Shown here in pieces: positions 5,941 through 8,915 of a stretch of DNA of 25,908 bases. Made by a program: the position numbers and the translations under genes. The DNA comes from a virus: positions 1 through 25,908 of the IMG/VR virus record IMGVR_UViG_3300044530_000638. One strand, 5' to 3'. How positions within the stretch are numbered: the stretch's first letter is position 1; the number at the start of each line of letters is the position of its first letter. The notes under the pieces are model-generated. The model was not told the DNA's origin and made no database searches. It worked only from the letters and a program-made list of their open reading frames with translations.

Positions 5941-6483
5941 ATGAAAATCGAGACCATCAAAACCACCGCGCTCATCCCGTATGCGCGAAATTCACGCAGC
6001 CATTCTGAATCTCAGGTGGCCCAGATCGCCGGGAGTATCCGAGAATTTGGATTCACCAACCCTGTCCTGATCGACGCGGACAACGGCATCATCGCGGGCC
6101 ATGGCCGGGTGATGGCGGCGGGCTTGCTCGGGCTGGCATCCGTCCCGTGCATCCGCCTGGCGCACCTGACCGACACCCAGAAGCGAGCCTACATCATCGC
6201 AGACAACAAGCTCGCGCTGAATGCCGGGTGGGATGAGGAGATGCTCGGGCTGGAACTCGCTGACCTGCGGGAGGCGGACTTCGATCTTGGCCTGCTTGGC
6301 TTCGACGCGGAGGGAATCGAGGCAGCTTTGAACCCTGACGAGTTGGAGCCCGAGGAGCCTGCCGAGGGAAACTTCGACAGCCAGTATGCCGTCACCGTCG
6401 TTTGCAAAGACGAGGGCCACCAGCAGCAAATCTTCGAGCGCCTAACCTCCGAGGGCCTAACCTGCAAAGTCGTCTGCGTATGA
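5941..6483 (+). CDS. ParB/Srx-like protein (modification cassette)
   Basis: This encodes 180 residues. Residues 8-95 are a ParB/sulfiredoxin-fold domain: LIPYARNSRSHS (11-22), SIREFGFTNPVLID, and the signature IIAGHGRVMAAG around 50-61 (GHGR at 53-56). In phages this domain often precedes a DNA methyltransferase; here the methylase is absent. The C-terminus ends in a compact segment (YAVTVVCKDEGHQQQIFE, then CKVVCV) that looks like a small alpha/beta domain. The stop overlaps the ATPase ATG (ATGA at 6480-6483). It is the first gene of a four-gene overlapping operon, so I infer a DNA-targeting or NTP-dependent role in base modification rather than partition; no ParA is present. Confidence 0.8.
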   Translation: MKIETIKTTALIPYARNSRSHSESQVAQIAGSIREFGFTNPVLIDADNGIIAGHGRVMAAGLLGLASVPCIRLAHLTDTQKRAYIIADNKLALNAGWDEEMLGLELADLREADFDLGLLGFDAEGIEAALNPDELEPEEPAEGNFDSQYAVTVVCKDEGHQQQIFERLTSEGLTCKVVCV

Positions 6484-7175
6484 AAATCGAAATACGAAAC
6501 TCCTGCCGCGACTTCAACTCCTACCGGGCCGCCCGCGTGAAGTCCCTGTTCAACCCGGAGAGAGGAGACACATTCTCGCTCGACGCCGATATTCCGGGTG
6601 CCGACGAGGACTGGCAAATCGGCGTGGTCGTCGGCCCGTCCGGCACCGGCAAGTCCAGCATCGGGCGGACGCTCGGCGGCGGCATCACAGACCTTTACGA
6701 GGGGTGGCCGGAAGACCAGCCAATCGTCGACGCCATCGCGCCGGGCGGCGACTTCAACGCCGTCACCGGGTCATTGGCTGCGGTGGGTCTTGGCGACGTT
6801 CCGGCATGGCTTCGCCCGTTCAAGGCACTAAGCAACGGCCAGCAATTCCGCGCAGGCCTCGCCCGTTGCCTATGCGACCCGCCCGACGTGCTTGTGGTGG
6901 ATGAGTTTACCTCGGTGATCGACAGGCAGATCGCTAAGATCGGCGCGCTCGCGTTTGCAAAAACGTGGCGCAGGCTACCCGGCAAGAAGGTGGTGCTACT
7001 CTCCTGCCACTACGACATCCTCGACTGGATCGAGCCGGATTGGGTTTACGATACAGGAAAGGGCCAGCTCACAAAAAAAGCGGAGCCGGGCCATGGAAAC
7101 GCCCGGCAATCGAACTGGAAATCAGGAAGGTCAACTCCAGTTATTGGCCCATGTTTGAGCCGCATTATTATCTGA
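6480..7175 (+). CDS. Soluble ABC-type ATPase (zero-frame product; N-terminal part of predicted ABC-GNAT fusion)
   Basis: The zero-frame product is 231 residues. It has Walker A GPSGTGKS (52-59), signature LSNGQ (117-121, a variant of LSGGQ), Walker B VLVVDE (137-142), D-loop SVID (145-148) and H-loop His177. There are no membrane segments and no permease nearby, so this is not a transporter. The ABC domain ends near residue 195; the 31-residue zero-frame tail after codon 200 is basic and low in information. At codons 199-200 lies an A AAA AAA heptamer in register for -1 frameshifting; slipping there gives a 385-residue ABC-GNAT protein ending at 7636. From memory, ABC-ATPase/GNAT fusions exist in other phages, which supports this reading. 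The ATPase may power DNA remodelling or base exposure for the modifying domain. Confidence 0.85.
   Translation: MKIEIRNSCRDFNSYRAARVKSLFNPERGDTFSLDADIPGADEDWQIGVVVGPSGTGKSSIGRTLGGGITDLYEGWPEDQPIVDAIAPGGDFNAVTGSLAAVGLGDVPAWLRPFKALSNGQQFRAGLARCLCDPPDVLVVDEFTSVIDRQIAKIGALAFAKTWRRLPGKKVVLLSCHYDILDWIEPDWVYDTGKGQLTKKAEPGHGNARQSNWKSGRSTPVIGPCLSRIII
7055..7107 (+). promoter_or_regulatory. Programmed -1 ribosomal frameshift signal (ABC to GNAT)
   Basis: Three elements lie in the order known from dnaX-type sites. There is an SD-like purine run AGGAAAGGG (7055-7063), ending 9 nt before the heptamer. The heptamer A AAA AAA (7073-7079) has zero-frame codons AAA AAA at 7074-7079. Then a 5-nt spacer (7080-7084) leads to a perfect hairpin, GCCGGGC (7085-7091), 9-nt loop, GCCCGGC (7101-7107). 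A -1 shift moves from the ATPase frame exactly into the GNAT frame. A simple assembly indel is the alternative, but would not explain the hairpin and in-phase heptamer. Confidence 0.7.
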
Positions 7176-7636
7176 AGCTGCCGCGCCCGGTGGCGGCTGA
7201 ATACTTCGTCGGGCTGGTCGACGGGGAGCTTGTCGCGCACCTCGCCGTCACGCCCAGGTTTGAAATCAAAGGGTTCCGCGCCACCCGGCTTGTCGTGATG
7301 CCCGAGTGGCAAGGGGCGGGTGTCGGCACCCGGTTTCTGAACTGGGTGTGCGCCTTCCACAAGGCGGGCGGCGGCCGTCGGGGTAAAGAGTTCCCCACCT
7401 ACTTTCACACGTCACACCCGCAGCTTGTCCAATTCCTCAAGCGGTCGAAAGATTGGAGGCAAGTTTCAGCCGTGATGAACGGTGGCAATAAAGCAAAGAG
7501 CGCCGCGTCCATAAAAAAAACCTACCGGGCCGGGTTGCACGGGGGGGGTATGGCAGCGCCGTCAATCGGCTACGGCGGCCACTTTCGCGCAGTCCAGGGG
7601 TTCAAGTTCATCGGCCCAGCGCTTCCGAAACCATGA
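7079..7636 (+). CDS. Mom-like GNAT acyltransferase domain (produced by -1 frameshift from the ABC ATPase)
   Basis: In the -1 frame, 185 residues follow the slip site. The GNAT fold starts at once (IELEIRKV, SSYWPMFEPHYYL), continues with FVGLVDGELVAHLAVTP, and has the acetyl-CoA-binding motif LVVMPEWQGAGVGTRFL (QGAGVG at fusion residues 278-283). It ends in RAVQGFKFIGP. A short N-terminal W-x-x-F-x-x-H-x-Y-L region and a C-terminal aromatic strand are, as I recall, features of the GNAT relatives of phage Mu Mom. The first strand has no ATG/GTG close upstream; ATG 7151 would cut it off and GTG 6965 would add about 40 residues of non-coding-like sequence. Fusion by frameshift is therefore the best start. 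Predicted role: transfer of an acyl or carbamoyl-like group to DNA bases. An A8 run (7513-7520) and a G8 run (7541-7548) lie near the 3' end. Confidence 0.75.
   Translation, partial: SGAGPWKRPAIELEIRKVNSSYWPMFEPHYYLKLPRPVAAEYFVGLVDGELVAHLAVTPRFEIKGFRATRLVVMPEWQGAGVGTRFLNWVCAFHKAGGGRRGKEFPTYFHTSHPQLVQFLKRSKDWRQVSAVMNGGNKAKSAASIKKTYRAGLHGGGMAAPSIGYGGHFRAVQGFKFIGPALPKP
7513..7548 (+). repeat. A8 and G8 homopolymer runs in the GNAT gene
   Basis: An A8 run at 7513-7520 is an in-register A AAA AAA slippery heptamer for the GNAT frame, and a G8 run follows at 7541-7548. A -1 shift at the A8 run would read stop-free through to the formyltransferase ATG at 7633 in the formyltransferase frame. Whether this is used is unknown; the normal GNAT C-terminus looks complete. 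Confidence 0.45.
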
Positions 7637-8310
7637 GCGAGAAATTGAAAATCGTTGTTGCAGGGCAGAAGCGTTTCGGTCGTGACGTGTTCGAGATGCT
7701 ACGGGAAGAAGGCCACGAGGTCGTCGCGTGCGTCTGCCCGATCACGCCGGAGAACCCGGACAAGCTCTGGATCTCCGCAGCGAACACCGACACGCCAATC
7801 ATCAAAGCGGGAACGCTGACCTGCGAAACCTGCCCAGCGTGCGACCTGATCGTCACCGCGCACAGCCACGACTTCATCGGCAAGCGCACCCGCCTCAAAG
7901 CCCGGCTCGGAGCGGTGGGCTACCACCCCAGCCTGCTGCCGCTGCACCGGGGGCGCGACGCGATCCGGTGGTCGATCCGCATGCGTGAGCGGGTGACCGG
8001 CGGCTCGGTTTACTGGCTGTCAGAAACGGTGGACGGCGGGCCTATCGCCGCGCAGCAGCACGTCTTGATTCGCCCCGATGACGACGAGCTTTCCCTCTGG
8101 GCGCGCGACCTTTCGCCGCTAGGGGTGAAGCTGCTCCGCAGGGTGGTGCGGGACATTTCCGCCGGCAGAATCATCAAACAGCAGCAGGAGGCCGCACTTG
8201 CCACATGGGAGCCGTCAATCGCCGGAAGCCCCAGCCTATTCCGCCCCGACCTCCTCCTCCTACCCGCGCCGGGCCAGAGGTTTGAACAATACATCAACTC
8301 AATCGCATGA
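7633..8310 (+). CDS. Formyltransferase-like enzyme (Fmt/GART fold) with altered active site
   Basis: This encodes 225 residues. The N-terminus is a Rossmann-like strand-loop-helix (KIVVAGQKRFGRDVFEML), as in methionyl-tRNA and GAR formyltransferases. The core motif is GYHPSLLPLHRGRDAI (96-111), followed by GGSVYWLSETVDGGPI with Asp134. In Fmt, GART and ArnA the catalytic trio is Asn-His-Asp, with Asn two residues before His in N-x-H-x-SLLP. Here His98 and Asp134 are present but the Asn position is Gly96. The Fmt C-terminal OB domain is absent. ATGA overlaps on both sides (7633-7636, 8307-8310) place it in the cassette operon. Inferred role: supplying or adding a formyl/one-carbon group during base modification. 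A housekeeping tRNA formylase is unlikely. Confidence 0.75.
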   Translation: MSEKLKIVVAGQKRFGRDVFEMLREEGHEVVACVCPITPENPDKLWISAANTDTPIIKAGTLTCETCPACDLIVTAHSHDFIGKRTRLKARLGAVGYHPSLLPLHRGRDAIRWSIRMRERVTGGSVYWLSETVDGGPIAAQQHVLIRPDDDELSLWARDLSPLGVKLLRRVVRDISAGRIIKQQQEAALATWEPSIAGSPSLFRPDLLLLPAPGQRFEQYINSIA

Positions 8311-8915
8311 GCGCCAAGAAAACACCCGCGAAGAAATCCGCCGCCCCCGCACCCAAAGTTGCGCAGGCCGACACCACCCAGCTTTGCCGCCTGTTCAATC
8401 TGACGAGCGCACGCATCGGCCAACTTGCCAAGGATGGGATCATCTTCAAGACCGAGCGCAACCAGTTCGACCTGTGGCGCAGCGTGCGCGGATACATCGA
8501 GTTCTTGCAGAAATCCAAAACCGAAGGCGCGAGCCACATGGAGCGCAGCGGCGTGACCGGCGATGCCCAGGAGCTAGCAGAGTTGGTGCGACAAGTCAAA
8601 GCCGCTAGAACCTATAACGACGCCCGAACGTTGAAGGTGCAGATCGATGCACTCCGGGCGGGCTATGCCTTGGAGGTCGAGCAGGAACGCTACTGCTCGA
8701 TGATGCAGATCGAGGACGGCATGGACGGGATCGCCGCCGTGGTCCGCAACTCGATCAAGCGGTTGGAAGCTGACCTGCCGCCGATGCTTGAGGGCCTCGA
8801 CGCGGCCGGCATGAAACGGATCATCAGTGAGAAAACCTCCATCGTGATCCAGACCATTTATGACGAAGGACAACGCATCAAAGCCCCAGCACTTGGAGAA
8901 GGTCCGCAGGATTAA
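8307..8915 (+). CDS. Terminase small subunit
   Basis: This encodes 202 residues. A Lys/Ala/Pro-rich basic N-terminus is followed by a winged-helix-like region (residues about 22-70: TTQLCRLFNLTSARIGQLAKDGIIF), as in lambda Nu1-type proteins. Then come helical, coiled-coil-like segments (LAELVRQVKAARTYNDARTLKVQ) and a C-terminal helix that would contact the large subunit. It overlaps the formyltransferase stop (ATGA) and the GpA-type large subunit by 56 bp, the expected place for TerS. Its role is recognition of phage DNA at the packaging site. Confidence 0.85.
   Translation: MSAKKTPAKKSAAPAPKVAQADTTQLCRLFNLTSARIGQLAKDGIIFKTERNQFDLWRSVRGYIEFLQKSKTEGASHMERSGVTGDAQELAELVRQVKAARTYNDARTLKVQIDALRAGYALEVEQERYCSMMQIEDGMDGIAAVVRNSIKRLEADLPPMLEGLDAAGMKRIISEKTSIVIQTIYDEGQRIKAPALGEGPQD

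Follow-up and report, generated by a model that had tools for sequence, protein, structure and literature searches.

A conserved A-run slip site between the ABC ATPase and GNAT domains of a probable phage DNA-modification enzyme

Results

Organization of the locus

The window analyzed here is the complete 25,908-nucleotide IMG/VR record IMGVR_UViG_3300044530_000638, in which an ABC-type ATPase open reading frame (6480-7175, plus strand, as for the flanking genes and junction elements below; ATG at 6480, stop at 7173-7175, 231 aa) is followed in the -1 frame by a GNAT acyltransferase domain (7079-7636, 185 aa from the slip, stop at 7634-7636). The ATPase scores 34.4 bits against Pfam ABC_tran (cut-off 25), and residues likely corresponding to the Walker A, signature, Walker B and H-loop motifs are conserved in an alignment of 19 relatives. 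The GNAT scores 26.9 bits against Acetyltransf_1 (cut-off 20.7), and its predicted structure (mean pLDDT 79.9) is a GNAT fold with many GNAT matches in the PDB, although a sequence search of the PDB returned no relatives at E 0.1. A single 357-position profile, phrog_11143, covers both domains in order, the ATPase at positions 1-195 (E 9.9e-85) and the GNAT at positions 197-351 (E 8.5e-53). The pair is flanked on the left by a ParB-like N-terminal domain protein (5941-6483; phrog_620 and phrog_15396), the stop of which overlaps the ATPase start (ATGA), and on the right by a formyltransferase-like protein of the Fmt/PurN type (7633-8310; Formyl_trans_N, 64.1 bits), the start of which overlaps the GNAT stop (ATGA), and by the terminase small subunit (8307-8915; phrog_57, E 3.2e-13).

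At the junction, an A7 run at 7073-7079 is read ACA AAA AAA GCG in the ATPase frame, placing the heptamer A_AAA_AAA in register. A slip to the -1 frame continues from 7079 (AGC GGA GCC GGG) and yields a 385-aa fusion. In the -1 frame the ATG/GTG/TTG codons nearest the junction are TTG 7040, which lies upstream, and ATG 7151, which would remove the first GNAT strand. A perfect 7-bp helix (GCCGGGC/GCCCGGC, 7085-7091 with 7101-7107) begins 5 nt after the heptamer, with a folding energy of -15.3 kcal/mol and a z-score of -2.0 (9 of 200 shuffles were as stable over 31 nt), but z is only -0.8 to -0.9 in the longer windows 7080-7160 and 7060-7130. No Rfam family matched in the window. The local statistics alone are modest, and since the record holds two other runs of A7 or longer (1401-1407 and 7513-7520), an A7 run is not rare enough to prove anything by itself; the proof comes from relatives.

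The run at 7513-7520, an A8 inside the GNAT that lies near a G8 run (7541-7548), also forms an in-register A_AAA_AAA, and its -1 frame is open to the formyltransferase ATG. However, a run there is present in only 26 of 107 frame-broken relatives, and the frame is open back to it in 3 of 23 loci tested, so we treat it as chance.

The frame relation and the slip site are conserved

Scans with the GNAT and ATPase halves of the window and of other members, together with four phage records, gave 381 loci including the window (loci are denoted by L numbers), one of them without an ATPase match (L327, omitted), and 223 distinct ABC+GNAT pairs. The window is represented among these by the contig L002, which encodes both parts at 100% identity, and L001, a copy of the window, was omitted. 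The counts are samples biased to near relatives of the queries and not frequencies in nature. In 111 pairs the GNAT is in the -1 frame relative to the ATPase, and 107 of these carry A6 (5), A7 (18), A9 (35), A10 (44) or A11 (5) at the junction. In another 111 pairs the two domains are in one frame, and only 3 of these hold a run of A6 or longer there (L147 A11, L268 A10, L260 A6), while one pair (L173, A11) is in the third frame. The four split pairs without such a run are L039, whose ATPase match breaks off early and whose likely twin L044 is in frame, and three very distant ones (L250-L252). Annotated phages such as Pseudomonas phage Komp_PAO1_1, a Porphyromonas phage and Gordonia phage Axumite encode one-frame fusions. 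A distant ABC-GNAT relative (L422, L423; 576-1651) is broken inside the ATPase (about 1049-1133) rather than at the linker, with an intact one-frame relative in L427.

In 107 of 107 frame-broken loci with a run, the run holds an in-register A_AAA_AAR and the ATPase frame stops 26-32 codons later. In 102 of 107 the -1 frame opens within 60 nt upstream of the run, which pins the shift to a narrow zone, and in 45 of 107 there is no ATG/GTG/TTG in the GNAT frame from there to 30 nt past the zero-frame stop; only 3 of 107 have a start with an SD-like motif. Runs of A9 or longer occur at the site in 84 of 107 loci but only once in 113,678 nt of the rest of these genes, although 46 of 107 loci have another run of A7 or longer elsewhere in the gene. 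In addition, 81 of 107 loci have a different canonical heptamer in the overlap zone, mostly in the conserved FFK stretch at about +66 to +78, where a slip would lose the first GNAT strand.

Past the run (7080-7175 in the window), the zero frame encodes an unconserved tail of the ATPase and the -1 frame encodes the first GNAT strand. In the clade of the window (9 loci), pN/pS in this overlap is 0.29 in the -1 frame against 1.6 in the zero frame. Across three clades the values are 0.24-0.26 for the GNAT, 0.29-0.45 for the overlap in -1 and 1.2-1.6 for the overlap in the zero frame, so the message is read in -1 from the run onward. Despite at least 17 changes of run length on the tree and several spacer lengths, 104 of 104 measurable spacers leave remainder 2 on division by three, against remainder 0 in 111 of 111 fused pairs; five frame-broken loci gave a spacer of 20 and three gave none, which we take for an anchoring fault.

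A phylogenetic tree was built from 207 of the 223 pairs (L039, L173, L250-L252 and short or stop-bearing rows were left out) and thinned at 90% to 147 rows. The distribution of split and fused states needs 5 changes, two of them the single rows L147 and L268, leaving three large split groups: the clade of the window (8 rows), a second of 24 rows (clade ii) and a third of 36 rows including those two. Of frame-broken loci in named genomes, 21 of 21 with a phylum are Bacteroidota, while 50 fused ones span Bacteroidota (24) and other phyla (26). Frame-broken loci are found in isolates, and the closed chromosome of Chryseobacterium sp. ZHDP1 carries two copies.

Elements around the slip site

A strong hairpin follows the run in many A6/A7 relatives. 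In clade ii an 8-bp stem pairs in 80 of 80 cells over 10 sequences, with double changes in two pairs, while slid controls reach at most 49%. In contrast, in the clade of the window a 4-bp consensus was found without covariation. Downstream structure is weaker in energy at A9-A11 sites (mean -7.4 against -13.5 kcal/mol), with 14 of 15 short-run and 6 of 51 long-run rows at or below -10.5 kcal/mol, but this difference is confounded with G+C content, and the 4 independent pairs were uninformative. The z-scores of A6/A7 and A9-A11 loci do not differ significantly (p 0.12), and both classes are below the fused set (p 0.009 and 0.008). The hairpin of the window may be a stimulator.

The SD-like stretch AGGAAAGGG at 7055-7063, noted in the preliminary description as preceding the heptamer, is probably not a stimulator. 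It is missing in several close relatives (L007, L009, L012, L014 and L015), and SD-like motifs precede 3 of 27 start codons in the window against a background of 10.6%, which suggests a host with little SD usage.

Genomic context supports a DNA-modification role

A formyltransferase lies directly downstream in 99 of 105 frame-broken and 96 of 101 fused loci with room. Phages with terminases up to 99% identical to that of the window keep ParB and the terminase small subunit (28 relatives) but hold other genes between them. We scanned 26 slot ORFs from 25 of the 28 loci, two of them from L415 and omitting L422, L455 and L456 as copies. All 26 match a DNA-modification or ABC-GNAT family: 14 match N6/N4 DNA methylase, 7 Mom, 3 C5 methylase and 2 GNAT acetyltransferase, and 13 of the 26 also match ParB profiles, the ParB-like domain being fused to DNA methyltransferases in relatives. 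One Mom-like ORF (L454, L455 and L456; 526-1246) is split into two frames around 872-894, identically in three contigs and with no long A run at the break, whereas an intact Mom-like ORF lies in the same slot of L463. The slot (5941-8310 in the window) is a swap site for DNA-modification genes among close phages, which supports a DNA-modification role for the ABC-GNAT pair.

The preliminary description called the GNAT Mom-like, which is not supported by sequence. The window GNAT has no match at E 0.1 to Pfam Mom PF25680 or phrog_1384, although both profiles are in the libraries searched, and hhalign gave a probability of 0.2% against Mu Mom. A predicted model of a one-frame homologue (L028, mean pLDDT 75.0) shows an ABC domain and a GNAT domain joined by a low-confidence stretch at 202-205, about where the slip falls in split members.

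Discussion

The central claim of the preliminary description, a programmed -1 shift joining an ABC ATPase to a GNAT domain that lacks a suitable start of its own, is supported by comparison: homologues are fused in one frame elsewhere, and the heptamer is kept in those that are not. We propose, with a probability of roughly 0.87 and without RNA or protein data, that the locus is a conserved recoding site in a phage DNA-modification cassette (ParB-like, ABC ATPase, GNAT, formyltransferase), in which ribosomes translating the ATPase reach A_AAA_AAA, pause at the hairpin 5 nt downstream, and a fraction slip back one base and read on into the GNAT, giving an ABC-GNAT fusion beside an excess of ATPase with a short meaningless tail. 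That the shift is ribosomal at A6/A7 sites such as this one, that A9-A11 relatives shift partly or wholly by RNA-polymerase slippage, that the purpose is to make the GNAT sub-stoichiometric to the ATPase (for mixed ABC dimers, or as a limit on a harmful enzyme) and that the substrate is phage DNA are inferences. A fixed excess of free ATPase is not universally needed, since one-frame fusions do without recoding in 111 pairs.

Transcriptional slippage, in which RNA polymerase adds one A in the run so that part of the mRNA encodes the fusion in one frame, is the strongest alternative, but we consider it unlikely for the window. In its favor, 84 of 107 relatives have A9-A11 runs, which are otherwise almost absent from these genes, downstream structure is weaker at long runs, and many IS elements use transcriptional slippage as an alternative, as does dnaX of T. 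thermophilus (PMC5009743). In those long runs it is at least as likely as ribosomal slippage. However, the A7 run of the window is shorter than the runs, probably of about nine or more, usually linked to slippage, 23 of 107 loci have only A6 or A7, and heptamers stay in register in 107 of 107, which slippage alone would not require, although coding of Lys would favor it.

Separate expression of the GNAT, by coupling to ATPase termination, is very unlikely. Overlapping stops and starts (ATGA) are used by the neighboring genes, and ATG 7151 lies 22 nt before the ATPase stop, but besides the 45 of 107 loci with no start codon in the whole zone, 74 of 107 have none that keeps the first GNAT strand, the -1 frame is under selection directly after the run, and one-frame fusions exist. 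Phase variation is also very unlikely: run lengths vary from 6 to 11 and the rare relatives L268 (A10) and L147 (A11) are in frame, but of 110 junction-run loci 107 share the -1 relation, 2 are in frame and 1 is in the third, whereas a switch should give a mix, and A6/A7 runs appear short for replication slippage. Sequencing or assembly error or gene decay, suggested by the error-prone nature of homopolymers and by L147 and L268 (one base away from the common state) and L173, which may be errors or natural variants, is refuted by the conservation and selection described above.

A further, tentative possibility is that recoding sets the subunit make-up of an ATP-driven DNA-modifying enzyme, free ABC subunits pairing with ABC-GNAT subunits to give asymmetric dimers, with A-run length plus hairpin tuning the ratio and lineages moving between ribosomal slippage (A6/A7 with a stem) and RNA-polymerase slippage (A9-A11, no stem needed) while keeping the same two products. 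The loci offer a natural series of sites with A6 to A11, with and without a stem. Gene callers will split or miss these enzymes in Bacteroidota prophages.

The locus would be a widespread, evolutionarily conserved case of recoding that controls a probable DNA-modification enzyme, and we found none described in the open-access literature searched. GeneTack (PMC3711429) does not mention acetyltransferases or GNAT in the main text consulted, the recoding review PMC5009743 does not mention Mom or DNA modification in the part examined, and PMC7761591 notes a DNA-modification gene near the right end of Flavobacterium transposable prophages with, in the text consulted, no mention of frameshift.

A GNAT coupled with an ABC ATPase was predicted earlier to make an uncharacterized acyl modification of a base in phages such as Tenacibaculum phage pT24 (Iyer et al. 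2013 NAR 41:7635, as cited in PMC7824862, which mentions no frameshift in the text consulted), and the window GNAT finds pT24 by tblastn at 30.6% over 65% of its length, but the members described here form a much closer family with a formyltransferase partner. The site shares with the -1 recoding of dnaX and IS elements at A_AAA_AAG/A_AAA_AAA a Lys-Lys heptamer, a downstream hairpin, two products (inferred here) from one start and long-A variants that may use transcriptional slippage (PMC4066793, PMC5009743), but the gene and role are different, the shifted product is the shorter one in E. coli dnaX and the longer one here, and no SD-type stimulator is expected here. The tail assembly chaperone frameshift of phages (lambda G/GT) is likewise conserved recoding that makes a C-terminal extension (PMC5009743, PMC10885494), but concerns a structural assembly factor and unrelated proteins. 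Mom of phage Mu (PF25680, phrog_1384) is a GNAT-superfamily DNA-modification enzyme of phages (PMC7824862) and occupies the same genomic slot in relatives of the window phage, but has no detectable sequence relation to this GNAT and no ABC partner in the stretch examined (phage Mu 35000-36717), where mom overlaps com in a different frame and Com, rather than recoding, is annotated as its translational regulator, another case in which a phage modification gene is under translational control.
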